This document shows positions 1 to 24,714 of a stretch of 27,872 nt of DNA, one piece after another. This DNA is from a virus. The notes beneath the pieces are model-generated. The model was given only the letters and a program-made list of their open reading frames with translations, was not told the origin of the DNA and did not search any database. Position 1 is the stretch's first letter, and each line of letters opens with the position of its first letter. A program made the translations under genes and the position numbers. Where the stretch lies: positions 1 through 27,872 of the IMG/VR virus record IMGVR_UViG_3300021197_000896. One strand, written 5' to 3'.

Positions 1-2256
1 AAGGCATCAAGCGGAGCAAATGAGAAGTTTGTCTTCAACTTTGACGATACCGATCAAAGATTCATTCGTAAGGTATTCAACACCAACCCACAACTTGTGT
101 CAAGTGGTGACTTCTACGATTCAACCCTAGAGCGCAACTACTGGCTCGGTGGAACATTTGAGCAGGAACTAAGAGATGGCGGTCGTAACAGCCTAACTGG
201 TAGTTCAACCTCACTTGTTACTTCTAAGATGCTCGGTGTTATTCTTCCAATCGAAAAGGGTGGTGTCGGTCCTGGCGATATGCAGGTTAGCACCCAGGAA
301 GCCCAGACTGGTTGGTTTATCGGTCAGGATCTTGGAGCCGCTGGAAGCTACCTTCCAGAAGAAGCACTTAAGCTATTCAAGCTTAAGGGGCGCGGACATG
401 GTGAGTGGCTAAACAAGAATGTCAAGATTTCTATTGAGAAGATTAGATATTCTAACACACAAACAAGCGACTACGGTTCGTTCTCGGTTGTTCTAAGAAC
501 ACTAACCGATACTGATACCAACCCAGTTATTCTTGAAAGGTTCGATAACCTAAGTCTAGATTCAAGATCACCAGATTACATCTCTAGAAGAATCGGTGAT
601 AAGCACTTACAGTGGAGCGAGACTGAAAGAAGGTTAAGAGAGTATGGTGAATACCCCAACCAGTCTAAGTTTGTATATGTCAGCGACATAAACGAGGGCA
701 ACATTCAAAACGCCAACTCTCTAATTCCATTCGGTTACTATGGTCCTCCAAACTTTGCTCCTGTTACTTCTTGGAGTGGTTCTTTGGAAACTGGTGATGC
801 CAATGGTGTTTCTACAAAATACATTTCTACTGGAAATACTTTTGCAACTGGCTCCGTTGCCGAACACTTTCTTTCAGGTGCTGCACAAAATCTTACTGCA
901 TCTCTTCAGTGGCCAATAGTTCGCCTTCGTCACTCCGCTTCTGATGGCGGAATGTCCGACCAGACTGATGCTTACTTCGGTATGCAGACCACAAGAGACG
1001 TAAGTTCAACCCGTGGCGCTCAGTCGGTAAAAGATTACCACAGACTTTGGCTACAAAGTGGCTGGGGCGGAACCGGTGTTGGTTTAGTTGCTCAGTCTTA
1101 CGTGTTCACCATGGATGATGTTATTGCCTCTAGCGCTGCTGCTTCATTCGAAAGCGGCTCCAGAACTGGTGGCTACAGCTATACAGCACAAAGCGGTAAG
1201 TCCTACAAGGATCTAATTGACCTTGGTTACGATAAATTTACCGCACCTATGTGGGGCGGCTTTGACGGCTTCGACATTACTAAACCAGACCCATTGTACA
1301 ACACTGGTATTTCTGATACAGCAACCGACAAAAACAGCTACATTTACAACACCTATAAGCGTGCCATTGACAGTGTTGCTGACCCAGAGTTTGTAGATAT
1401 GAACCTCTTAATTGCCCCTGGGCTAACTAAGGACGGACTAACAACTCATATGGTTGATGTCTGCGAGGCGAGAGCAGATGCGCTAGCTCTTATCGATCTA
1501 CCAAATGTGTATCTTCCATCACACGAAGCATATTACCCTGACATCAAAGACAGACAGGCATCTGCTCCGTCTGATGCAGCTAACAAACTTCGCCAGCGCC
1601 AAATTGATTCATCATATGGTGCCACTTTCTACCCTTGGGTACAGACCGTAGACGAAGGCACCGGTCAGGCTCTCTGGGTTCCCCCCACTGTTGCAATGAT
1701 GGGTGTCCTTGCGTCTTCCGAACGTAGCTCAAAGATCTGGTTTGCGCCCGCAGGCTTTAATCGCGGTGGACTCTCAGACGGTGCCGCAGGTATTCCTGTC
1801 ACCAGCGTCTCACGCAGACTGACTTCCAAGGAGCGTGATGTTCTTTACGAAGCACGCATTAACCCAATTGCTAGTTTCCCAAGTACCGGTATTGTTGTCT
1901 TCGGACAGAAGACCCTACAAGAGAGACCATCTGCGGTTGATAGAATTAATGTGCGTCGTCTGGTTATTTTCCTTAAGAAGCAGATTTCCATACTTTCTAC
2001 TCAGATTCTTTTTGAGCAGAATGTTCAGGCAACTTGGAGCCGCTTCAAGGGTCTTATCGAGCCATTCCTTGCAAATGTCAAGGTTGATTTCGGTATCACC
2101 GATTACAAACTCATCCTAGACGAGAGCACTACAACGCCTGACCTTATCGACCAGAATGTTGTTTACGCAAAGATTATGATTAAGCCCGCAAGAGCAATTG
2201 AGTACATCGCTATCGACTTCATTGTTGCTTCTACCGGCGCATCATTTGACGACTGA
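1..2256 (+). CDS. Contractile tail sheath protein (T4 gp18-like), 5' end outside the window
   Basis: The frame is open from base 1, so the gene starts upstream; an internal GTG at 97 is not a credible start. At least 751 residues are visible, longer than T4 gp18 (659 aa). The last ~110 residues carry the conserved sheath C-terminal pattern: an RINVRRLVIFLKK helix, the LFEQN turn, then a PFL..V..DFGITDYKL strand, a DQNVVYAKIMIKP segment and an IEYIAIDF strand. In T4 this domain forms the inner layer of the sheath around the tube and holds the extended arms that link subunits. Residues before it are rich in Ser/Gly/Thr, as expected of the variable outer domains. The tail tube gene follows 61 nt later, the usual sheath-tube order. 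Family assignment is firm from the C-terminus; the rest is family knowledge. Confidence 0.94.
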   Translation, partial: KASSGANEKFVFNFDDTDQRFIRKVFNTNPQLVSSGDFYDSTLERNYWLGGTFEQELRDGGRNSLTGSSTSLVTSKMLGVILPIEKGGVGPGDMQVSTQEAQTGWFIGQDLGAAGSYLPEEALKLFKLKGRGHGEWLNKNVKISIEKIRYSNTQTSDYGSFSVVLRTLTDTDTNPVILERFDNLSLDSRSPDYISRRIGDKHLQWSETERRLREYGEYPNQSKFVYVSDINEGNIQNANSLIPFGYYGPPNFAPVTSWSGSLETGDANGVSTKYISTGNTFATGSVAEHFLSGAAQNLTASLQWPIVRLRHSASDGGMSDQTDAYFGMQTTRDVSSTRGAQSVKDYHRLWLQSGWGGTGVGLVAQSYVFTMDDVIASSAAASFESGSRTGGYSYTAQSGKSYKDLIDLGYDKFTAPMWGGFDGFDITKPDPLYNTGISDTATDKNSYIYNTYKRAIDSVADPEFVDMNLLIAPGLTKDGLTTHMVDVCEARADALALIDLPNVYLPSHEAYYPDIKDRQASAPSDAANKLRQRQIDSSYGATFYPWVQTVDEGTGQALWVPPTVAMMGVLASSERSSKIWFAPAGFNRGGLSDGAAGIPVTSVSRRLTSKERDVLYEARINPIASFPSTGIVVFGQKTLQERPSAVDRINVRRLVIFLKKQISILSTQILFEQNVQATWSRFKGLIEPFLANVKVDFGITDYKLILDESTTTPDLIDQNVVYAKIMIKPARAIEYIAIDFIVASTGASFDD

Positions 2257-2317: not shown

Positions 2318-2905
2318 ATGCCATTCTGGTCAACTAACTTTGGTGAGGACACTACCCTCAAAGATCCAAAACGTAACTTTAGATTTATCGTTGAATTTAA
2401 CGGTATCAACGCTACCCCCGGTGGTGCTCTTGCTTGGTATGCCAAGTCTGCACAGAAGCCTTCATTCGCTGTAGCCAGCGCAGAACACAAGTATCTTAAC
2501 CATACCTTCTATTACCCAGGCTCGGTTACTTGGAATCCAATTTCCATTACCATGGTCGATCCGGTTGAGCCAGACATGACTGCTACATTCGCTGACATTC
2601 TTGTTCAGAGTGGCTACTCTCCACCAACCGACACTACGTCTCTTGGTACTATTTCCAAGGCAAAGGCAGCAGGTGCTCTCGGTATCGTTACTATCACCCA
2701 GATTGACTCAGACGGCAATCCGCTTGAAACTTGGACTCTTTGGAACTCTTTTGTTGAAGATGTTAAGTTTGGCGATTCACTCTCATACGGTGATGATGAG
2801 CTTACCGAAGTCTCTGTGACCCTCAAGTACGACTGGGCAAGAGTAGAGACCACCACAGACTCTTCAGCAGTAAGTGGCGGCGGTCGCGAGTTCTTCAAGG
2901 TATAA
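2318..2905 (+). CDS. Tail tube protein (T4 gp19-like)
   Basis: This 195-aa protein matches the gp19 tail tube family, whose hexameric rings stack to form the inner tube of the contractile tail. Visible family features are an early FRFIVEFNG strand (about residues 22-30), an aromatic-rich HTFYYPGSVTWNPISITMVDP region (about 62-84) and a late acidic LSYGDDELTEVSVTLKYDWA region (about 150-170), which form the strands of the tube barrel in this fold. The length is close to T4 gp19 (163 aa) with a modest extension. The start is ATG with AGGAG about ten bases upstream. Position directly after the sheath gene supports the call. Confidence 0.93.
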   Translation: MPFWSTNFGEDTTLKDPKRNFRFIVEFNGINATPGGALAWYAKSAQKPSFAVASAEHKYLNHTFYYPGSVTWNPISITMVDPVEPDMTATFADILVQSGYSPPTDTTSLGTISKAKAAGALGIVTITQIDSDGNPLETWTLWNSFVEDVKFGDSLSYGDDELTEVSVTLKYDWARVETTTDSSAVSGGGREFFKV

Positions 2906-2934: not shown

Positions 2935-3756
2935 TTGTCAAGAAACAAGAATCGTGTTGGAAACACAGTCCAGCACGACACAAGCCCCCCAGCAGACAAT
3001 GGCGGTGGCTTTTCATTTGTGGTTCCAACAGAGTTTGTGGACCTTCCTTCTCAGGGTCGTTTTTATCCAGAAGGGCACCCACTACATAATCAGACTTCTA
3101 TTGAAATCAAGCAGATGACTGCCAAAGAAGAGGACATTCTTACTTCAAGATCTCTTCTTAAAAAGGGCGTTGCCATTGATAGACTAATTCAGAGTCTAAT
3201 AGTCAACAGAGGAATCGATCCTTCATCGTTGTTAACAGGAGATCGAAACGCTATTGTTATTGCTGCCAGAGTTTCTGGTTATGGTAACGATTATGAAACA
3301 AACGTGCAGTGCCCTGCTTGTGGTGCTAAACAGAATTACTCTTTTGATTTGAATTCTGCGAATCTTATTCACGGAGTTGCGAGAGAAGATTTGGGAGTCA
3401 CTGATAATGGTGATGGAACAATCACTTGTATTCTCCCGAAAACAGAAGTTGAAGTTGTTGCCAGATTGCTTACAGGCAGAGATGAGGGCGCCGTTACCAC
3501 TTTGGCAAAATCAAATAATTTGGTTACGCAGCAGCTTGAAAGAATTATTGTGAGTGTAAATGGGGATAGTTCTACACAGGCGATACAATATGTATCGCAA
3601 AACTTGCCTTCATTTGATTCTCGTCATCTTCGTATGGCTATTAAAAAAGCTACCCCAAACATCGATCTAACCCAAGAATTTTCCTGTACCGAATGCGGTC
3701 ATGAGCAGGAAATGGAGGTGCCGTTGACAGCGGACTTTTTTTGGCCTGACCGATGA
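2935..3756 (+). CDS. gp26-like baseplate hub / tail assembly protein with zinc fingers (TTG start)
   Basis: A 273-aa protein of the T4 baseplate gp26-like family (PF12322 type, recognised by pattern). Landmarks are LPSQGRFYPEGHPL at 37-50, MTAKEEDILTSRSLLKKG at 61-78, and GDRNAIVIAARVSGYG at 102-117. Two CxxC pairs follow, C126/C129 and C251/C254, which could form one zinc site. It starts at TTG: GAGGTG lies at 2925-2930, four bases upstream, and no ATG or GTG fits better. A 6-bp inverted repeat (2910-2915 with 2934-2939) overlaps the start. The gene ends at a TGA six codons after a run of seven T (3736-3742), where another frame continues for 80 codons. It lies between the tube and tape measure genes, the position of tail assembly chaperones in many phages. 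Confidence 0.83.
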   Translation: MSRNKNRVGNTVQHDTSPPADNGGGFSFVVPTEFVDLPSQGRFYPEGHPLHNQTSIEIKQMTAKEEDILTSRSLLKKGVAIDRLIQSLIVNRGIDPSSLLTGDRNAIVIAARVSGYGNDYETNVQCPACGAKQNYSFDLNSANLIHGVAREDLGVTDNGDGTITCILPKTEVEVVARLLTGRDEGAVTTLAKSNNLVTQQLERIIVSVNGDSSTQAIQYVSQNLPSFDSRHLRMAIKKATPNIDLTQEFSCTECGHEQEMEVPLTADFFWPDR

Positions 3757-3982
3757 ATACAACGAGGGTCTGTACGAACAGATTTTCTTTCTAAAGTATT
3801 CGGGTGGGTGGAGTTTTGCTGAAGCGTATAGCCTGCCTGTAGGGCTTAGAAACTGGTTTGTTAAGCGCACCATCAAACAACTTGAGATGGAAGCAGAATC
3901 AGTTAAAAATGCCTCCAAGGGCGGTGGCAAGTCTCAAGAACTGACACCCTTTAATCAGCCAACAATGCCAAAAACCTTCTAA
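3746..3982 (+). CDS. Small tail-assembly ORF downstream of gp26-like gene; start unknown, possible frameshift product
   Basis: This reading frame is open from 3728 to the TAA at 3980-3982 and encodes about 80 residues that look like real protein: a YEQIFFLKYSGGWSF segment, AYSLPVGLRNWF and an acidic/basic helix, ending in NQPTMPKTF. It has no ATG, GTG or TTG start before residue ~45; the first near-cognate codon is CTG at 3746, with no good Shine-Dalgarno. The ATG at 3753, which overlaps the upstream stop, is in another frame and ends after 13 codons. The frame is +1 (equivalently -2) relative to the gp26-like gene, and the two overlap at TTTTTTT (3736-3742). Expression as a frameshift extension of the upstream protein, CTG initiation, or a homopolymer sequencing error would each explain this. 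Function is inferred only from context. Confidence 0.6.
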   Translation: MTDEYNEGLYEQIFFLKYSGGWSFAEAYSLPVGLRNWFVKRTIKQLEMEAESVKNASKGGGKSQELTPFNQPTMPKTF

Positions 3983-4046: not shown

Positions 4047-6257
4047 ATGGCGATCACACCCGAAGAATTACAAGATCTAATAAAAGCTGGCGCTTCTGTT
4101 ACAAAGATCAGAGATGAGCTTGAGGGGATGTCTAGGGGCGCGATGAGAGAACTATCAACGGCTTTTCAAGACCTCGTCGGCGATACTGATGGATTAGTAA
4201 AGAAACTCAACGATGCCGTCGCAGCCCAGGAAAGAAGCTATGATCGCAGCATTAAATCAATAAAAGCCGCTAAAGAAGAAGCACAGCAAGCCTTAAATAA
4301 CGCTTCTAATAAACAAAAAGCAGCAGAATTACAGATAGAGTTAGAACAAAAGCAACTAGAACTTCTAAAAGAGCAAAAAAAACAAGGCGAAGATGTTGCT
4401 GACCAAATACAAAAACAAATAAAAACGTTAGAGGGTTTGGGACAGGAACTCAATCAGGCAAAAAAAGCTGTTGATAGTCTTAGTAGCGGTTTTGGAGATC
4501 TTTTAAAAGGCAATCTAACTTCTGGTTTAAAGTCTGTGGGTAAGGGACTCGGAGAGCTAACCAAAAAGGCAGGACTAGACCCCATTGCCAAATTTAAAGA
4601 TGAGCTTTTTGGACTAGCCACAAAAGCAATCGGCGGTAGCGGCGGCGCTATAGCGGCGTTAGGTGGGCTGTCTGCGGCATTTGTAGCAGTTGGTATTGCC
4701 GCATTTGTCTGGAAAAAGATATTTAAACTAGCAATAGAAGTGATGGATGCCCAAAGTGCCTTTATGAAGGCAACCGGCGCATCAAGAGAGTTTGCTAGTT
4801 CGCTTAATGAAGTTACCGAAGACGTGCGAAGGTTTGGAGCATCAGCAAAAGAGGCTGGTGAATCATTTCAAGCTTTGTTTACTGGAGTTTCTGACTTCAC
4901 AATGATGTCTGTTGGGGCACGAGAAGAAATAACAAAGAGCGCGGTCGCACTTTCAAAACTTGGCGTCAGCAATCAAGACTTTGCTCGTGGATCACAAATA
5001 GCAATCAAAGCTATGGGACAAACTGGTGTGCAAGCCGCTGCCACACAAAGAGAGATCGCTGCTCTCGGCATGGACATAGGCGTTGCGCCATCCAAGATGG
5101 CTGCCGACTTTGCCGAAGCAGGACCACAACTGGCTAAGTTTGGCTCTGATGGTGTTCGGGCATTCAAAGACTTGGCTGTTGCTGCAAAGGTAACAGGAAT
5201 TGAAGTGGGCAGGCTTATGAGTATTACAGGACAGTTTGATACTTTTGAAGGCGCTGCCACAGCAGCCGGCAAATTGAATGCTGCCCTTGGTGGCAACTTT
5301 GTTAATGCGATGGAGTTAGTTACTGCGACAGATCCAGTAGAAAGGTTCAAGATGATAAGGGACTCCATACTTGATGCTGGGTTATCTTTTGATGAAATGT
5401 CGTATTATCAAAGAAAATTCTTTGCCGAATCAGCGGGTCTTGAGGGCGAGGCAGAACTGGCAGCACTTATGTCTGGGAACATGGATTCTCTCGCTGGAAA
5501 CATAGGCAAAACATCAGATCAGTATGCCAACATGGCAGAGCAAGCAGCAAAGGCGCAAAGTTTTCAAGAAAAAATCGATACCTTGTTTATGTCTCTTATA
5601 CCAGTAATGGAGCCTTTAATAGAATCATTGGTATCATTATCTGATTGGATGATGGAAAACCTAGATGTTGTCAAGCTTGGCTTCAAAGCGATGCTTATTG
5701 GTGTTGGCGCACTAACAGTGGCTATGACTGCTCTTGGGGTTTCTACACTGATAGCAACAGCACCGGTTTGGGCTATCCCTGTCGCTATAGGGGCTGCTAT
5801 CGCTGCAATAGCGGCATTAGCCTCGCTATTATTTGTTGATAGCTATGCTTCTTCTTTCCTTGAAGGTCTTCACAAAATAGGAGATGGATTTGCATTTATA
5901 GCAGAAATGGCAGCATTTGCCGGCAGCCCCATCAGCAAGCTCATAGGTGAAATGGGAGAACTTGGTGGTGAGATGTTTACAGGTGACAAAAACATACTCG
6001 TGGGCACAAAGATGACCGGTGATGGACTGGCGGGTGTTGGTACTGGCGCACAGATGGCAGCCAATGCTTCCGGCAACCTAATCACCGCACAAAAAGAAAC
6101 AATGAGAGAAGTCACGCGAGAGACAAACAACAACTATAGCGGAAATAGCAGCGATACCAAAGTTAACATCAACTTTGCCAATAAGAGATTCAAAGACTTC
6201 TTTGATGTCGAGGTCGAAAACTCTATTGGCAGAGCAGCAAGAAAGGCGGTAATCTAA
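4047..6257 (+). CDS. Tail tape measure protein
   Basis: The 736-aa protein has the architecture of a tape measure. It has a charged alpha-helical N-terminal part with a Lys/Glu/Gln-rich coiled coil at about 50-145. A Gly/Ala-rich hydrophobic segment lies at about 195-225 (GGAIAALGGLSAAFVAVGIAAF), and the middle is long and helical. A long membrane-active stretch at about 545-597 is rich in Ala, Ile and Val. The last 60 residues are rich in Asn and end near a basic RAARKAVI tail. Tape measures fill the tube, set tail length and can help DNA cross the inner membrane. At roughly 0.15 nm per residue the helical length would be about 110 nm, a family rule of thumb. The start has GGTGAGG upstream and follows a terminator. 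Confidence 0.85.
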   Translation: MAITPEELQDLIKAGASVTKIRDELEGMSRGAMRELSTAFQDLVGDTDGLVKKLNDAVAAQERSYDRSIKSIKAAKEEAQQALNNASNKQKAAELQIELEQKQLELLKEQKKQGEDVADQIQKQIKTLEGLGQELNQAKKAVDSLSSGFGDLLKGNLTSGLKSVGKGLGELTKKAGLDPIAKFKDELFGLATKAIGGSGGAIAALGGLSAAFVAVGIAAFVWKKIFKLAIEVMDAQSAFMKATGASREFASSLNEVTEDVRRFGASAKEAGESFQALFTGVSDFTMMSVGAREEITKSAVALSKLGVSNQDFARGSQIAIKAMGQTGVQAAATQREIAALGMDIGVAPSKMAADFAEAGPQLAKFGSDGVRAFKDLAVAAKVTGIEVGRLMSITGQFDTFEGAATAAGKLNAALGGNFVNAMELVTATDPVERFKMIRDSILDAGLSFDEMSYYQRKFFAESAGLEGEAELAALMSGNMDSLAGNIGKTSDQYANMAEQAAKAQSFQEKIDTLFMSLIPVMEPLIESLVSLSDWMMENLDVVKLGFKAMLIGVGALTVAMTALGVSTLIATAPVWAIPVAIGAAIAAIAALASLLFVDSYASSFLEGLHKIGDGFAFIAEMAAFAGSPISKLIGEMGELGGEMFTGDKNILVGTKMTGDGLAGVGTGAQMAANASGNLITAQKETMREVTRETNNNYSGNSSDTKVNINFANKRFKDFFDVEVENSIGRAARKAVI

Positions 6258-10600: not shown

Positions 10601-11071
10601 GAAGGCTACAACGGCTTAGAGCAGCTAAGAGAAGTCTACAATGTTAAGGTGGATTCTTTCTTAAACGTCCAAACATTTCCGGGTACTTATATTTATGTTG
10701 AGCCAAGAGGGTTTTCTCCCAATACTACTGAAGATCTAACTCGATATGGCATAGGCGGCTACCACATGATTACGAAGACTACACACAGGATTGCACCCGG
10801 CGATGCGTCTACAACTATTCAGGCAGCTTGGGTAGCAAGCAAAGAAGGTAAACCGACTAAGGCGGGAGGCGGCGGTAGTGGAACAAAAAAGCGTACTCCA
10901 GAGAGCAATGAAAAAATAAATAAATGTGTTGTCGGTGTTATCGACCTTGGTAGGCTTATAACCGGCAGAGACGGACGAGACTTGACTCCAAGAGAGCGTG
11001 GTCAGTTAGGGCAGGAACTATATGAAGCCGCAGAAGAGGCTGGCACGCACAAAGGGATTTATACAGTATAA
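7670..11071 (+). CDS. Very large baseplate structural protein with hub-like C-terminal domain
   Basis: This is the largest gene in the window (1133 aa). I recognise no single family over its full length. Residues 1-350 are mostly helical, with an Ala/Glu-rich coiled section near 240-310. A beta-rich module starts near residue 375 (YIRLYKVEKDEDG, then RGYGVGMNSFTFSYDG near 417). A Lys/Gln-rich helix is near 740-775. A C-terminal module of about 910-1060 has NYYVFSAGRK, FEQEGYNGLEQLREVYNV, FPGTYIYVEPRGF and GIGGYHMITKTTHRI followed by TIQAAWV. That last pattern, a barrel strand, a position-fixing loop and a closing strand, resembles gp27/gpD-type hub barrels. The hub role is therefore inferred; a virion role is well supported by context. 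It overlaps the next start by one base (TAATG). Confidence 0.6.
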   Translation: MAEETKPWCFTKDMALEQLDGVKQAYLDKLQEVHSQISDEEWKGIVEPFKLGSHKLGNYNEKPSSPVYKSNWWNLEDPDCWKAHREYASDNLEVDNPLNNISISLQDFWLSEIYTRGSAVNPLILQQQRFKDIESTTGLLITDKFSTVEGLKVYNIKELKEEIYSVLGALVDVLILFEKEPAYPSMAANFSTLCLKVESSLTQIEEIVNTYSAFCPTNEGFKDYYLDAVIKLGEDQIKLDVATAAASAAVDDGGALIEGPAGMTRGFRNAQDALEYTKAIEDARIKARERLEKAIEQAFEEAFADNLAYSEQCMLLTFLPELLVSNNSNGIPYVNPQDSNYPLKVDGDAFGFVNRLVVDPSQKELFELKPSVVSQLIPYIRLYKVEKDEDGVDRETRITFDTNITNDLGGSGSSLRRQRGYGVGMNSFTFSYDGTDPFSAKKAISARLSIFASTFDDLLRERDGFKYADLALKTGGIAESKKRTLSDIEKENAEKLNFRLKATVGWNVPRETFVGFSEDIRNAMYNSYITIYLTPTIHSFDFDETGAVTFDIEYLAYIEDAMAQRSFNIFSNLAKEQLAMESIVDSLKEMGCEESGEEFKKINKANEEFVSQTNLMAYSSLVSKLAGKDKIYYLNMTYDDVSRILQNPDDEDIVFPKPYTNSMVSQTTPEAINKAADLTTDEDGSNGQNILSVAAVSQDNESIPYFYLEDMVAIAMENVEQTLRTGAQDLSSAKYFEFLRKKEIASINLSRAKKQIKNKQVELKNSLQQFQQMRVMLGPIEVYSPSRNKASIKTTLANIPISLNYFFEFMSKKVLSKEILNYPINKFIKDLVNDLIKNFLNSSDCTRVDNSQKLNINSTAITAYNRTRSRSEWKAGKPSIDDISYFLTDPKAERDGPVLLLSGKRDAPVSTPIGGMINYYVFSAGRKYPVDNYVGDRTADENVGIFHYILGRDKGIIKNISLEKTTTTGLKEVRFEQEGYNGLEQLREVYNVKVDSFLNVQTFPGTYIYVEPRGFSPNTTEDLTRYGIGGYHMITKTTHRIAPGDASTTIQAAWVASKEGKPTKAGGGGSGTKKRTPESNEKINKCVVGVIDLGRLITGRDGRDLTPRERGQLGQELYEAAEEAGTHKGIYTV

Positions 11072-12267
11072 TGGGTATCTTCTATAAAGAATCAAATGAA
11101 GAAGGGTCGAGAGATCTATTCAATAAGTCTGTTATCTACAAAGGAGAAATGTTAGAGTTTTCTGAAACATACTCCAATGTTGTAGATTTTAACTTTGGAG
11201 AAAAATATTTATTTGGCAGAGTAAACCGAAACTACATTAGCATACAACCCAATGAAATACTGACTACTTTTACTCGTGTAAACAATCAAAGAAGCAGGGA
11301 TTCTGTAAAAGTATTTAATTTTGTGGCAGATGGATTTCAGGAACTATCGAGACAATTTAAAAAAGCAGCACAAATAGGCAAAATAGATAAAAACGATGAC
11401 TATCTTACAAACCTAATAGCATATGACGGCTACAAGAGTGTCGACAGTCTCTACGGCATCTATATTTCAGACATGGTGTCAGCTATAAGGGGCAAACTCA
11501 CAGATGACAATATTATTATAAAAGACTTTGATGGTTTCGTCCAGTATCTTTTGAGTTTTATCCATGCAGCAGGGCAAACTTTCCCTATTACCAAGACCGG
11601 TTTTGTTCGTAGTCGTCACTGTTCTCCGCTTATTAGCGGCTTGACGATCGAGATTGCAGATCTCACATACACCAACGATCAGCAGAAGATTAATCTGTTT
11701 AAGAACAGTAGAAATTTTGAATATTACCTTAATGCTTGCAACAGCTTTGGTTTCATGGTAGACTCTTCCATCCCTTGGAGGATTACTCTTGATATTGGGA
11801 GTGATGATGTGGTTGAAGGTCTGCTAAAACCTCGTGGATTCACTTCCACTGATTCACTTTTGCTTGTTGGTTATAAACAAACACATATATCTTATTATAA
11901 TTCTTTTAGATCTCAATTGCTAGGAATATACAATCAAGTTGTAAGATCAAATCATATTGAATATGATGATTGTAATGGAAAAACTAAAATTATAAACAGA
12001 ACAGAATATACATTAGATAAAATCAATAATATTTATAATGAAGATTATTTTATTAAATTATATTGTATGTTTAGATTTATAGAAGAAGAGAACAAACATT
12101 CAAAAGCAGAACAGGATCATAATATAACAGACTTCATAAATCTGTCAAGGACGAGCGGTGTAAATTATGCGATAGGATCCTTTGAAAGATTTATCTCGCA
12201 ACCATTTGACTATCGCGGCTCGCTGAGTTATCTTATAAGAGAACAAGAGAAACGAGAGGATGTATGA
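11071..12267 (+). CDS. Virion structural protein of unknown role with AT-rich 3' part
   Basis: A 398-aa protein that I do not recognise beyond a general likeness to structural proteins of marine myoviruses. A notable segment is FPITKTGFVRSRHCSPLISGLTIEIADLTY near residues 171-200. The first ~270 residues look globular and mixed alpha/beta. The 3' part from about 11880 to 12110 is strikingly AT-rich (about 19% G+C over 11881-12060, against roughly 40% nearby) and encodes Tyr/Asn/Ile-rich sequence. Its start shares a base with the stop of the preceding gene, and its stop overlaps the DNA polymerase start by four bases, so one mRNA links virion and replication genes here. Confidence 0.6.
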   Translation: MGIFYKESNEEGSRDLFNKSVIYKGEMLEFSETYSNVVDFNFGEKYLFGRVNRNYISIQPNEILTTFTRVNNQRSRDSVKVFNFVADGFQELSRQFKKAAQIGKIDKNDDYLTNLIAYDGYKSVDSLYGIYISDMVSAIRGKLTDDNIIIKDFDGFVQYLLSFIHAAGQTFPITKTGFVRSRHCSPLISGLTIEIADLTYTNDQQKINLFKNSRNFEYYLNACNSFGFMVDSSIPWRITLDIGSDDVVEGLLKPRGFTSTDSLLLVGYKQTHISYYNSFRSQLLGIYNQVVRSNHIEYDDCNGKTKIINRTEYTLDKINNIYNEDYFIKLYCMFRFIEEENKHSKAEQDHNITDFINLSRTSGVNYAIGSFERFISQPFDYRGSLSYLIREQEKREDV

Positions 12268-13454
12268 TCTTCCAAACACTGGACGACAAAACAGAGTGTG
12301 TCGGTGTCTACGTTGATGGTAAACTACACTTCGACCATATCCCCGATGGACTAACAAGAACATGGAAATACACAGGATCCGTTCAAGATCCCGATGTTGA
12401 GTTTGCTTGGTTATATTGCGGAGGTAAAAAATTAGAAGAAGTATGCCCAGAAGATTTAAAAGCGGAACTTACCGAGCTTCAAAAGACCTTCAAAGCCTAC
12501 CTTCTGTCACTTTCAATAGGCAAGATCAACCTACACGACAATTGTTTTTTCGATCTCGTGCCAAGTGACTTCTTGCTTCAGTTTTGTGAGGTCAGAAACA
12601 AGATCACAGAGCACGTTTTTAATAACCACTCTCGTCCTGAAAACTACGTTCACCTTGATCGTACTTACAAGCTTCTCCATAAGATCAAATATCAGAAGTT
12701 GAATATCAATGTGGATGGGTGCCGTCACCTAATGACCACCACAAGCGACCGAGAAGACATCAGAATGCTTGTAAAAAACAAGTCCCACTATGTGGACTAC
12801 AATCTTTTTGGAACCGTCACAGGGCGCCTCGCGACCAAGAGAGTAAGCAATCCTATTCTCACAATGAAGTCAAGATTTCGTTCTCTAATCAAGCCAACAA
12901 ATGACTGGCTTGTGTCGTTTGATTATAACGGAGCAGAGGTAAGAACCTTCTTAGCACTCTCGGGTATTGAACAGCCAGAAGAAGACATTCACGAATGGAA
13001 TATGAAACACCTTTACGGAGATCACCCTATTGATCGGGAAGAAGCAAAGGTTAGATTTTTCTCTTCGTTCTATAATCACAACGACAATTCTCTCAAAAAT
13101 TCTGTTTACAGTAGGGATCGGGTTACTGGTGATTATTTTTATGGGAATCGCATCGTAACGCCGCTTAGGCGGACTATCAAAGTAGATGAGAAAAAGGCTT
13201 TCAGCTACATTATCCAAAGTACGACAGCAGATCTTACAATCGACAGGGCTATTGAGCTTGATAAGGTGCTTGAGGGCACAAAATCAAAAGTGGCTTTCAT
13301 TGTACACGATGAAGTTGTGCTTGACATTCACGAAGAAGACAGATATAGGATACCAGAGTTAAAGGAGGTGTTCCAAAACAACAAACTTGGATCGTTTAGA
13401 GTAAATGTAAAGGCAGGCAAAAGTTACGGAGACCTGAAGGAGTTGAAGTTGTGA
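12264..13454 (+). CDS. Compact family A DNA polymerase without exonuclease domain
   Basis: At 396 aa this is roughly half the size of T7 or E. coli Pol I-type enzymes. The polymerase motifs are intact: TGRLA at 186-190; motif A DYNGAEVRTF at 220-229, with catalytic D220 and E225; motif B with R258, K262, F266 and Y270 in the exact R-x3-K-x3-F-x3-Y spacing (the usual YG is YN); QSTTADL at 318-324; and motif C HDE at 348-350. Phe at the 266 position predicts discrimination against dideoxynucleotides. No 3'-5' exonuclease motifs are seen in the N-terminal ~130 residues, and distances between motifs are short, implying reduced fingers. It overlaps the upstream structural gene by ATGA and the downstream gene by GTGA. 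It is likely the replicative polymerase, with proofreading absent or supplied in trans. Confidence 0.88.
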   Translation: MIFQTLDDKTECVGVYVDGKLHFDHIPDGLTRTWKYTGSVQDPDVEFAWLYCGGKKLEEVCPEDLKAELTELQKTFKAYLLSLSIGKINLHDNCFFDLVPSDFLLQFCEVRNKITEHVFNNHSRPENYVHLDRTYKLLHKIKYQKLNINVDGCRHLMTTTSDREDIRMLVKNKSHYVDYNLFGTVTGRLATKRVSNPILTMKSRFRSLIKPTNDWLVSFDYNGAEVRTFLALSGIEQPEEDIHEWNMKHLYGDHPIDREEAKVRFFSSFYNHNDNSLKNSVYSRDRVTGDYFYGNRIVTPLRRTIKVDEKKAFSYIIQSTTADLTIDRAIELDKVLEGTKSKVAFIVHDEVVLDIHEEDRYRIPELKEVFQNNKLGSFRVNVKAGKSYGDLKELKL

Positions 13455-20857: not shown

Positions 20858-22255
20858 ATGCTTAAACACAAGGCAGACTTTGGGAGGTACGGCAAGTCCT
20901 TCCAAGAGGGGCTCGTTCAACTCATATTTGAGGACCGCCCATTCGCAGATCAAATAACGGAGGTTCTGAACGTCGAGTTCTTGGAACTTGAATATCTTCG
21001 TGTATTTGTGGCAAAGATAGTAGAGTATAGAACAAAGTATGGCAAGCACCCATCCACAAATGCTATGATCTCTGTTGTCAGAACAGAACTAGATCGAGAG
21101 TCGGAAGTAACACAGAAGCAGGTGCGTGATTACTATGCGAGAGTCCATACGAACGAGATGTCTGATGACATAGACTACATCAAAGAGACCTCTCTTGACT
21201 TCTGCCGAAAGCAAAAGTTAAAAGAAGCAATGATGAAGTCTGTCAACCTTCTACAGACCTGTTCTTTCGATGAGATCTCAAAGGTAATCAACGACGCCCT
21301 TAAATTAGGTTCAGAAAACAACTTTGGATATGATTTCATTGCAGACTTTGAAGAGAGGTATAAACCAAAGTTTAGACTCCCGGTCTCAACTGGTTGGAAA
21401 GAGATTGATACCATCACGAGTGGTGGGCTTGGTAGAAACGAGCTTGGTGTCGTTATCGCCCCTACTGGAGCAGGCAAGTCTATGGCTCTTGTTCACCTTG
21501 GCTCACAGGCGATCAAAGAAGGCAAAACTGTAATCCATTACACTCTAGAATTACAGGACACAGTTGTGGCTTGTCGCTATGATTCTTGCATTACACAGTA
21601 TCCTCTTTCAGATCTTACAAATTTCAAGGATGAAATCTATGAAGAAATTAAGGATCTTGACGGAACTCTAATCGTCAAAGAATACCCAACCAAGTCTGCC
21701 TCGACTAACACTATCAAGGCGCACCTTGCCCGTCTAATAAAGAGGGGCATAACGCCCGGTCTAATCATCGTAGACTACGCAGATTTGTTAAGACCCGTCG
21801 TAGTACGGAAAGAAAAAAGAACGGAACTGGAGTCAATCTACGAGGAACTAAGAGGTCTATCTAATGAGATGAACTGTCCTGTCTGGACAGCCTCACAAAC
21901 CAACCGCTCTGGTCTAAATGCAGAAGTTGTGACCATGGAGCAGATCTCTGAGGCATTCAACAAGTGCTTCGTCGCTGACTTCATCTGTACTTTGTCTCGC
22001 ACGATTGAAGACAAACAAAATAATAGAGCGAAGATGTTTATTGCTAAGAATCGTAATGGTCCCGATGGCATTGTTTACGATCTCTTTATGGACACTTCTA
22101 GCGTTAACATCAAAATGTTGCCCAAGGCAATTGTTCCTGCTGGCGCAGCAACAAGCATTTCAGCCTCCCCTGTGGTCGCTGGACCGAAAGAACAAAAAGA
22201 AATTCTAAAAAACAAGTACGATAAATTCAAAAAATTAAGGAGAAAGATTAGATGA
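20858..22255 (+). CDS. Replicative DNA helicase, DnaB/gp41 type
   Basis: The 465-aa RecA-fold helicase would unwind duplex ahead of the polymerase as a hexamer on the lagging strand. Walker A is APTGAGKS at 201-208. HYTLELQD near 228-235 carries the catalytic Glu, Walker B is LIIVDYADLL near 301-310, TASQTNRSG near 346 is the H3 sensor, and AKNRNGPDG near 390 is the DnaB-type arginine region. The first ~150 residues are helical, as in the N-terminal collar domain. No primase (TOPRIM or zinc) domain is fused. The ATG has TAGGAG upstream, and the stop overlaps the RNR start by ATGA. Confidence 0.92.
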   Translation: MLKHKADFGRYGKSFQEGLVQLIFEDRPFADQITEVLNVEFLELEYLRVFVAKIVEYRTKYGKHPSTNAMISVVRTELDRESEVTQKQVRDYYARVHTNEMSDDIDYIKETSLDFCRKQKLKEAMMKSVNLLQTCSFDEISKVINDALKLGSENNFGYDFIADFEERYKPKFRLPVSTGWKEIDTITSGGLGRNELGVVIAPTGAGKSMALVHLGSQAIKEGKTVIHYTLELQDTVVACRYDSCITQYPLSDLTNFKDEIYEEIKDLDGTLIVKEYPTKSASTNTIKAHLARLIKRGITPGLIIVDYADLLRPVVVRKEKRTELESIYEELRGLSNEMNCPVWTASQTNRSGLNAEVVTMEQISEAFNKCFVADFICTLSRTIEDKQNNRAKMFIAKNRNGPDGIVYDLFMDTSSVNIKMLPKAIVPAGAATSISASPVVAGPKEQKEILKNKYDKFKKLRRKIR

Positions 22256-24213
22256 GAACACATATTCGTAGATTTAAACTATCAGATACATTCATAGATC
22301 AATACAGAGAACGCGAGGTCCCCTGGGGTCCACTCGGTTATATAACATTCAAGCGCACCTACGCCCGTCGCTTGAGTGAGTTTGATGAGGAAGCAACTGG
22401 CACCGAAGAATGGCACCAGACGTGTCGCCGCGTCATTGAGGGCATGTTTGACATGCAGAAGCAGCATGTCTACAAGCTCGGTCTTGAGTGGAATGACCAG
22501 AAAGCACAGCGCACCGCTAAGGATGCGTTTGATCGCCTCTTTAATCTTAAGTGGACGCCGCCCGGTCGTGGCTTATGGATGATGGGAACGAAGTTCGTTA
22601 ACACCCGCACAGCAGCAGGTCTGTTCAATTGTGCATTTCGTTCTACCCGAGAACTAAACACCAAAGGAGGTTACCTCTTTGCCTGGATGATGGATGCCCT
22701 CATGCTGGGCATTGGCGTTGGCTTTGATACTCTCGGCGCTGGTACACTTACAGTTCGTGAGCCAGAATTTACAAATGAAACACACGTCATTCCAGACTCT
22801 CGTGAGGGATGGGTTGATTCTGTAAAGATATTGGTGAACGGATTCTTGTTTGGTTCAAAGGTTCCTAAATTTGATTACTCTGCTATACGTCCCTACGGAG
22901 CACCTATCCATGGTTTCGGTGGCACATCAAGCGGCTCTGGTCCCCTTGAAGAACTACACAAGGATTTGGCAGAACTCTACACTGCGAGAGTTGGCGAAGA
23001 AATAACATCCGTAGACATTGTGGACACCGAGAACTTGATCGGTCGCTGCGTTGTTGCTGGCAATGTTCGTCGTTCTGCTGCGTTGGCTCTTGGCAACCAC
23101 GAAGACCGTGAATACCTACAGATGAAGAACGATTCCGAGAAGCTTGCCCACCATCGTTGGGGTTCTAACAACTCCTTCCACGCTCTTGTTGGTCAGGATT
23201 ACACTTGGCACGCAGAGCAGTCACAAAAAAACGGAGAGCCAGGATACATTTGGCTTGACAATGCAAGAACTCGTGGTCGCTTTGCTGATCCTCCGAGAGA
23301 TGATGACAAAAATGTTATGGGGTTCAACCCCTGTGTCGAGCAGCAGCTAGAAGATGCGGAATTATGTTGCTTGGTAGAGACTTTCCCAGCAAAGCACGAA
23401 ACTTACGAGGATTACCTTGAGACTCTCAAAATTGCCTATCTTTACGGCAAGACTGTAACCCTTGCAAACACCCATTGGGCTGAAACCAACGCAAAGATGC
23501 TTAAAAACCGTCGCATCGGTCTTTCACAGTCTGGTGTTGTCCAAGCTTTCAACAAGTTTGGTCGCCGTGAGTTACTACAATGGTGTGATAGCGCTTACGA
23601 ACACGTAAAGGAGTTAGATGCAGAATACTCTGATTGGCTTTGTATTCCAAAGTCAGTAAGAATGACAAGCATCAAGCCTTCTGGCACAGTTTCGCTTCTC
23701 AATGGTTCTACCCCCGGTATCCATTACCCAGAAGATGAATACTATATTCGTCGCATTCGTTTTGCGGCAGACAGTGACATGCTTCCAGCGCTTGCGACTG
23801 CTGGCTATGTAATCGAGCCCGACCACTACTCCCCCAATACAATGTGTGTCGAGTTTCCTGTTCACGAAGAACATTTCGTCAAGGGCAAGAGAGAGATCAC
23901 AATGTGGGAACAACTTGAGATTGCGGCGCAATACCAACACTACTGGGCTGACAATTCTGTGTCTATCACTGTGACCTTTAAGCCAGAAGAGGCAGCAGAT
24001 ATCAAGACCGCTCTTGAAATGTATGAGACTCGTCTCAAGGCTGTATCTTTTCTTCGTTACGAAGAGACGGGATATGTCCAGGCTCCTTACGAGCCTATAA
24101 CACGAGAAGACTATGAACAAATGTCGAAGGGCATTGTGCCGGTCCAGCGATTCTCAACTGAAGAAGGTGGCGCAGGCACAAAATTCTGTGATTCAGATCA
24201 TTGTGAACTATAG
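22252..24213 (+). CDS. nrdJ: Class II (adenosylcobalamin-dependent) ribonucleoside-triphosphate reductase
   Basis: A 653-aa monomeric-type B12-dependent reductase, related to the Lactobacillus leichmannii enzyme (739 aa), that makes deoxynucleotides for phage replication. The thiyl-radical site is NPCVE at 359-363 (C361). The substrate-reducing pair is C127 (LFNCAFRS) and C372, the latter 11 residues after C361 as in the Lactobacillus enzyme. The C-terminal shuttle pair is C646 and C651 (CDSDHCEL), C-x4-C as in that enzyme. KPSGTVSLLNGSTPGIHYP near 478-496 is the conserved phosphate-binding finger loop. It needs no small subunit or oxygen, but the host must make or import cobalamin. It is in an operon with the helicase. 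Confidence 0.95.
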   Translation: MRTHIRRFKLSDTFIDQYREREVPWGPLGYITFKRTYARRLSEFDEEATGTEEWHQTCRRVIEGMFDMQKQHVYKLGLEWNDQKAQRTAKDAFDRLFNLKWTPPGRGLWMMGTKFVNTRTAAGLFNCAFRSTRELNTKGGYLFAWMMDALMLGIGVGFDTLGAGTLTVREPEFTNETHVIPDSREGWVDSVKILVNGFLFGSKVPKFDYSAIRPYGAPIHGFGGTSSGSGPLEELHKDLAELYTARVGEEITSVDIVDTENLIGRCVVAGNVRRSAALALGNHEDREYLQMKNDSEKLAHHRWGSNNSFHALVGQDYTWHAEQSQKNGEPGYIWLDNARTRGRFADPPRDDDKNVMGFNPCVEQQLEDAELCCLVETFPAKHETYEDYLETLKIAYLYGKTVTLANTHWAETNAKMLKNRRIGLSQSGVVQAFNKFGRRELLQWCDSAYEHVKELDAEYSDWLCIPKSVRMTSIKPSGTVSLLNGSTPGIHYPEDEYYIRRIRFAADSDMLPALATAGYVIEPDHYSPNTMCVEFPVHEEHFVKGKREITMWEQLEIAAQYQHYWADNSVSITVTFKPEEAADIKTALEMYETRLKAVSFLRYEETGYVQAPYEPITREDYEQMSKGIVPVQRFSTEEGGAGTKFCDSDHCEL

Positions 24214-24221
24214 GAGGAAAG

Positions 24222-24461
24222 ATGAACTTTAATCACCTGTTCGATGACAAGGAATTACGACTTGCTAATAAAAATAGTAAGTGTAGTCATTGTTATTGGC
24301 TACCAGCGTCGGAAGGACAAGCAAGTGCAGCTAACAATATAGCAGTTAAAATGTATTGTAAGAACTGCAACAGCAGGACGCATATTTTTATGCCACTTAA
24401 TGAATACAACAAACACCAAAAGGTTATAACCCAGGAGGTAAACCGTGTTAAGACCAGTTAA
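24222..24461 (+). CDS. Small zinc-ribbon protein of unknown function
   Basis: A 79-aa protein with two CxxC knuckles, C21/C24 (KCSHC) and C46/C49 (YCKNC), 21 residues apart, the geometry of a zinc ribbon. The remainder is polar with a Lys-rich C-terminus. AGGAGG lies a few bases upstream of the ATG, a strong ribosome site. Its last 17 bases overlap the next gene's GTG start, and its own C-terminal codons contain the AGGAGG used by that gene. It is not recognisable as a redoxin (no CxxC-cis-Pro pattern), so a nucleic-acid or protein adaptor role is more likely, but this is a guess. Confidence 0.75.
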   Translation: MNFNHLFDDKELRLANKNSKCSHCYWLPASEGQASAANNIAVKMYCKNCNSRTHIFMPLNEYNKHQKVITQEVNRVKTS

Positions 24462-24714
24462 TCGACACATTCTTGTAGATTATTCTCCACCACAGGAGAA
24501 CGCAGACTCAGGAATTTTACTACCCGATGACTACAAACCCCCTACAGAGGACTATGTAGTTGTGGATGTTTTAGCAGTTTCTGAAGACGTATCTATACGT
24601 TGTAGCGATGATGACCAAATAGTTATTGACAAAAAGATGTTACAAGAAATTAGTGTAAATCATTCTATTTACTATCTGATACTAGAGAATTATGTAATAG
24701 GAGTAATTGAATAG
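24445..24714 (+). CDS. GroES/gp31-like co-chaperonin
   Basis: The 89-aa protein fits the Cpn10 family (GroES 97 aa, T4 gp31 111 aa). It begins LRPVNRHILVDY, the first barrel strand, followed by a mobile loop at about 16-33 with SGILLPDD, in which ILL matches the GroEL-binding IVL tripeptide of GroES. The strand VVVDVLAVSEDV follows and the C-terminus ends with YYLILENYVIGVIE. The roof loop is short. It probably caps the host GroEL to fold phage capsid or other proteins. The start is GTG with AGGAGG (24433-24438) six bases upstream. It ends immediately before the endolysin ATG (TAGATG). Confidence 0.87.
   Translation: MLRPVNRHILVDYSPPQENADSGILLPDDYKPPTEDYVVVDVLAVSEDVSIRCSDDDQIVIDKKMLQEISVNHSIYYLILENYVIGVIE

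Follow-up and report, generated by a model that had tools for sequence, protein, structure and literature searches.

A tail assembly chaperone gene of a viral genome fragment appears to be decoded by +1 programmed ribosomal frameshifting, which would give a short (TAC-N) and a long (TAC-NC) form; judged from sequence, we put the probability of this reading at roughly nine in ten. The gene lies in the window, an IMG/VR fragment of 27,872 bases (Table 1). A frameshift-encoded chaperone had been proposed in an earlier note made from the bare letters, and the fixed phase of the two frames, the lack of a conserved start, selection in the +1 frame only, a constrained slip site, the genomic position and a single gp26 copy all argue for it. 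The chaperone function is proposed by homology and position.

Table 1. Features of the putative chaperone locus and its flanking genes in the window
Feature	Position	Strand	Remarks
Tail sheath gene (context)	97-2256		
Tail tube gene (context)	2318-2905	+	PHROG 4542 tail tube, E 1.4e-24
Putative gp26-like short chaperone (TAC-N)	2935-3756	+	273 aa, zero frame; TTG start, stop TGA 3754-3756
Predicted fused long chaperone (TAC-NC) via +1 shift	2935-3982	+	348 aa, translation skipping one base; putative expression
Frozen synonymous block (candidate cis signal)	3714-3754	+	Homozygosity per codon exceeds background by up to 8 SD
GGAGGT, Shine-Dalgarno-like	3714-3719	+	19 nt 5' of the P-site codon; 100% of 79 loci
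Predicted 5' hairpin CCGUUGACAGCGG	3721-3733	+	In the fold, GGAGGU also pairs with ACUUUU and lengthens the hairpin (3714-3739)
Slippery run TTTTTTT	3736-3742	+	Second UUU and UGG kept in 79/79 nonredundant unbiased loci
+1-frame extension (TAC-C)	3743-3982	+	79 aa, no start of its own; predicted three-helix domain
Tape measure gene (context)	4047-6257	+	PHROG 1272 tail length tape measure, E 1.8e-9

Gene order in the window is tail sheath, tail tube, gp26-like gene, extension and tape measure. The pair thus sits between tail tube and tape measure, as tail assembly chaperone pairs of the G/GT type do, and the PHROG matches on both flanks confirm the placement that had been claimed for it. The last codons of the gp26-like ORF are GCG GAC TTT TTT TGG CCT GAC CGA TGA, and its zero frame ends four codons past the slip, as had been noted. 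If one T is skipped, the reading continues as GGC CTG ACC GAT GAA and stays open for 79 codons until TAA at 3980-3982, with a translation that begins GLTDEYNEGLYEQIFFLKYSGGWSFAEAYSLPVGLRNWFVKR. The +1 frame has a stop 15 nt 5' of the junction, and between that stop and the junction no ATG, GTG or TTG was found in this frame in the window, which bears out the description of a startless frame overlapping the gp26-like gene at seven T. TTY TTT TGG occurs in frame only once among the window's 8,533 codons, at this slip site.

Alongside the T4-type tail genes, the window contains a family A DNA polymerase match (PF00476, E 2e-13; 12264-13454), whose neighbour (11071-12267) gave no Pfam match. Genes for a phage-encoded B12-dependent ribonucleotide reductase (22252-24213) and a GroES-like (Cpn10) protein (24445-24714) are also present.

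The gp26-like ORF belongs to Pfam PF12322, T4_baseplate (E 3.3e-18; 66.6 bits versus a curated cut-off of 24.5), and matches PHROG 150, baseplate hub (E 1e-19). An AlphaFold2 model of TAC-N (pLDDT 84) has the HK97 tail assembly chaperone 2ob9 as its best PDB match, which is a weak one (E 0.38). The extension was modelled as a three-helix domain (pLDDT 84) for which the structural search gave no significant match, and a sequence search for solved relatives of either part found none. In T4, gp51 is a gp26 paralogue (E 2e-6) carrying a C-terminal addition, giving two PF12322 copies per genome (gp26 and gp51), compared with at most one in the +1 phages (16 records, three of them below threshold). 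A weak hhalign match between the extension and the C-terminus of T4 gp51 (P 8e-4, probability 24%) is only suggestive of homology, and the full-length gp51 profile gave no match. The extension, at 3743-3982, also bears a weak likeness to DUF6760 (PF20546), a family of unknown function, scoring 17.8 bits in the window and 22.6 in the best relative, both near but below the cut-off of 27.

Scans of IMG/VR returned at least 534 sequences related to the first gene and at least 594 related to the extension, and the best 80 of each were taken. The extension lies +1 to gp26 in 89 distinct junctions and then in 182/182 distinct marine-clade loci, which are related, so that locus counts are not independent. 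When a pattern tolerating zero to four free bases at the T run was applied, only the in-phase length matched (167/167 distinct contexts). A wider set of 91 relatives, reaching down to 42% identity, has the +1 arrangement in 86 cases and separate genes in two, and in the other three the contig stops too early; relatives in GTDB contigs show the +1 continuation in nine of nine cases. The arrangement recurs in the distant public phages Microcystis Mel-JY01, Flavobacterium immuto, LR756508, Bacillus SP-15, Listeria LIS04 and Streptococcus GXN1, as well as in Streptomyces phage BRock. The zero-frame stop falls 8-17 nt past the slip in 182/182 loci. One locus with a gp26-like gene and extension, 45% identical, is found in a contig labelled as a WOR-3 bacterial chromosome (L396; CP070664.1, 2763407-2770264) and represents a prophage or an assembly join.

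Homopolymers are generally prone to sequencing and assembly error, and the real gene might on that account be an in-frame fusion. This explanation is already refuted by the sequences of the relatives and is given a negligible chance: 182/182 distinct loci from many assemblies concur, the same phase occurs in separately sequenced isolates and in variants lacking the homopolymer, and the in-frame fusion named in the earlier note as a sign of error was found in no relative. An ATG-started separate ORF had been named there as counter-evidence too, and such ORFs do exist, among the 91 wider relatives in L296 and L301 only. In these two sister-lineage contigs, the extension has its own ATG, located 3' of the gp26 stop; the slip motif is lost in L296 and CTT TGG is retained in L301. 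We read both as lineage switches because the +1 arrangement occurs on their near as well as their far sides.

Coding selection was assessed in 79 nonredundant loci picked without reference to the junction. The pN/pS of the extension is 0.21 in the +1 frame and about 1 or 2 in the others, and the other two frames, −1 included, contain stops in 79/79 loci; the extension thus evolves as a protein in that frame alone. A point against the frameshift is that 59/79 loci have an upstream start codon in the same +1 frame, though at positions that are not conserved, and the window has none; 20/79 loci have no start upstream of the slip, 14/79 have none at all to +33, and CTG at +3 is replaced by CTA or TTA in 13/79. 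This lack of a conserved start, together with the changes at +3, speaks against a separate protein made by reinitiation past the gp26 stop or from a non-ATG start, which would also leave the invariant YTT TGG and the fixed +1 phase across separate lineages unexplained. Although GGAGGT is present upstream, and ATG-started or annotated separate ORFs occur in L296, L301, Rhizobium phage Y68 and cyanophages, we regard a separate protein as very improbable.

The junction reads TTY TTT TGG in 182/182 loci, all of them +1, and the frame relation is conserved in the comparison of relatives that the earlier note had suggested. A full T7 run (TTT TTT TGG) is present in 175/182 loci and would permit UUU-to-UUU re-pairing two bases back, that is, a −2 slip as in phage Mu, which the earlier note had left standing beside +1. 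However, TTC TTT TGG is found with phase kept in seven loci of this set and in 10 of the 91 wider relatives, and TTT CTT TGG in three of the 91 and in immuto; on both, the P-site tRNA may re-pair +1 on UUU, not −2. A −2 slip in the TTC TTT TGG loci would place tRNA-Phe on UCU, a codon it is unable to pair with, and the TTT CTT TGG, UUU CUA and UUU CGU variants likewise disfavour a −2 slip, again with phase kept. Of the two shifts, +1 was therefore retained and −2 has only a slim chance. Equally slim is that of RNA polymerase slippage, by which the homopolymer of seven would yield some six-U mRNA and a fusion without any ribosomal shift: the frame relation is unchanged in lineages with only four or three consecutive T, and such slippage requires neither a hairpin nor frozen codons as far as 29 nt upstream. 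As variants without T7 keep the phase, the shift would be +1 and not −2, sequencing error or transcript slippage.

Ribosomal +1 slippage at YUU-U/C would fit all variants, unlike homopolymer transcript slippage. The distant +1 contexts are TTT TTT CAC (SP-15), TTC TTT CGT (GXN1), TTT CTA (LR756508), TTT TTT AGT (LIS04) and TTT CGC (BRock), and in LIS04 and LR756508 the YUU-U/C slip fits at the first of the two codons. UUU CGU in GXN1 (L282:4707-4715) and UUU CGC in BRock (L414, end of the 1357-2226 gene) resemble the influenza PA-X +1 site. UGG in the A site is not a stop codon, and at 12.7 per 1000 codons in the window it is not rare either; it gives no ready reason for a pause, which counts against the +1 model.

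Codon choice at conserved residues was tested against a background from the same genes, with coordinates relative to the first +1 base. The freeze of synonymous sites is limited to about −29 to +11, running from GAG (−28) to GAT (+9), and at +12 codon choice is again at background level. The conserved signal starts about 22 nt 5' of the T run (3714) and so extends beyond the seven T to which the earlier note had pointed. The frozen codons include CCG (77/79), GCG (72/79), GGC (70/79) and CTG (66/79), and rare codons of the window are among them (CCG 4.8 and CTG 4.7 per 1000). The GAG codon of GGAGGT is found in 79/79 loci versus an expected homozygosity of 0.57, and GGAGGT (−29 to −24) never varies in the near clade but is displaced or missing in more distant lineages.

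The hairpin fold of the window has −8.2 kcal/mol (z −2.0). Across 74 loci, the 21 nt preceding the slip have a mean of −6.7 kcal/mol, 5.7 below synonymous shuffles, and the hairpin segment falls in the lowest tenth of shuffles in 74/74 loci versus 8-9% at control segments (in 58 more varied loci, 72% versus 7-10%); the related loci are not independent, and G+C-rich codon choice explains part of the excess. The excess stability is confined to the segment just before the slip. Stems vary in sequence and register by lineage, such as GGTTCC-TTTC-GGAACC and CTGCCG-TTTA-CGGCAG, and are weak in phages related to Flavobacterium immuto and Microcystis Mel-JY01. Covariation in the marine alignment is uninformative, as the stem hardly varies and the register shifts between lineages, and synonymous shuffles were therefore used. 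It is speculation that the hairpin, if formed, would place GGAGGT about 6 nt from the P site. Two other stimulators were rejected. An RF2-like Shine-Dalgarno does not agree with GGAGGT lying 19 nt from the P site, which is not the RF2 spacing, and for a downstream stimulatory pseudoknot the consensus fold contained weak downstream pairs without covariation, and the downstream excess stability of the marine set resembles that of a control segment.

Most ribosomes would pass UUU UUU UGG and terminate four codons on, releasing the gp26-like TAC-N. In a minority, the P-site tRNA-Phe would re-pair from UUU (3739-3741) to the overlapping UUU (3740-3742) with UGG (3742-3744) in the A site, and the slipped ribosomes would then decode GGC CUG ACC and onwards into a 348-aa TAC-NC ending in a small helical C-terminal domain. 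The analogy with lambda gpG/gpGT and T4 gp26/gp51 suggests a coat of TAC-N on the tape measure protein, with the less abundant TAC-NC helping to bring in tube protein as the tail is built. Refolding of the hairpin right behind the decoding site, with GGAGGU nearby, probably promotes the forward movement.

Tail assembly chaperone pairs of the lambda, P2 and HK97 type shift −1, and that of Mu shifts −2. Like these (lambda gpG/gpGT and the Mu/P2/HK97-type pairs), the present locus lies between tube and tape measure and has a second frame without a start, a slip site late in the first gene and predicted short and long isoforms, but its shift would be +1 and would combine a 5' hairpin with a sense codon in the A site. 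The −1 (or Mu −2) direction, usual but not the sole one recorded for these chaperones, was not found here, and thus the mode differs and not the layout. T4 gp26/gp51 belong to the same family, and the layout of gp51 is equivalent to that of TAC-NC; T4 uses two genes, whereas the relatives of the window would use one gene and a +1 slip.

As cited in PMC12846349 and PMC10885494, Vladimirov, Gautam and Davidson (2022, Virology 566:9) assigned the role of tail assembly chaperones to T4 gp26/gp51. PMC12846349 states −1 poly-T signals in T4-like TAC-N genes as known and places −1 shifting TAC-N genes in T4-like, Vandenendeviridae and Andersonviridae phages. These resemble the present locus in having a poly-T slip at the end of TAC-N and an extension frame unbroken in relatives, but they shift −1 at GTTTTT or U UUU UUY heptamers, and here the other frame is used; the −1 product frame expected of an X XXY YYZ heptamer is stopped in 79/79 loci. 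Forward-shifted chaperones of actinobacteriophages in SEA-PHAGES (350 forward versus 2368 backward training cases; PMC10885494) share the +1 direction but are annotation calls, not shown there for the gp26 family. The searchable literature yielded no account of a +1 shift in this family. The novelty that the earlier note saw in a T4 gp26-type protein holds in part: that T4-like gp26/gp51 are chaperones, some with −1 shifts, is already published, but no description was found of the +1 mode, of how widely it occurs, of the 5' hairpin or of the changes from one mode to another.

The RF2 shift involves an A-site stop codon and a Shine-Dalgarno located 3 nt upstream. As in RF2 and influenza PA-X, a P-site YUU followed by U or C would allow +1 re-pairing, the sites being CUU U in immuto, UUU CGU in GXN1 and UUU CGC in BRock. 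Of the RF2-type features, YUU and the following U are present and the A-site stop and the 3-nt Shine-Dalgarno are absent; unlike in RF2, the A-site codon is UGG and GGAGGT is 19 nt upstream with a hairpin between. RF2 +1 frameshifting is covered in PMC10885494.

A −1 extension frame with U UUU UUY/G heptamers occurs in cyanophages, Caulobacter Cr30, Stenotrophomonas Yut3, Rhizobium Y68, RaK2, PA5oct, Atu_ph07 and huge phage LR756511, and some of these also carry an ATG for it. Records with U UUU UUY in this frame are L407, L415, L408, L409, L411, L412, L413 and L279. Some −1-frame loci have a GGAGGGA-like sequence about 8-12 nt upstream of the heptamer, and public records of these phages mostly annotate separate genes, or nothing. 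The gp26 gene family thus appears to be used in at least four ways to make two isoforms. We lean, with some reserve, towards a broader reading in which a T4-superfamily division (the uncultured marine clade and the Flavobacterium, Microcystis, Bacillus, Listeria, Streptococcus and Streptomyces phages) makes the long chaperone by +1 on YUU-U/C, with the shift driven by a 5' hairpin beside GGAGGU in the marine clade at least. As the same gene would have switched among +1, −1 (at U UUU UUY, as cyanophages and jumbo phages do), separate genes and gene duplication, what is conserved would be the making of two forms and not the decoding mode.

In bacteria, −1 frameshifting is better understood than the forward kind, whose main worked example, RF2, relies on a stop codon. 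Here, a large natural alignment combines a +1 site at a sense codon with a 40-nt frozen signal and a 5' hairpin whose sequence varies, and this variation lets the role of each element be read and tested in a small reporter. If true, forward shifting that pairs a sense codon in the A site with a 5' hairpin would represent an unusual class of stimulator. The finding would correct annotation in many genomes, where the extension is now missing, truncated or hypothetical, and it offers an answer to how phages with a single gp26 copy obtain a long chaperone, for which T4 has a second gene. In a large, mostly marine group of T4-like phages, a few copies of this helper protein appear to carry an extra end by means of a forward skip.
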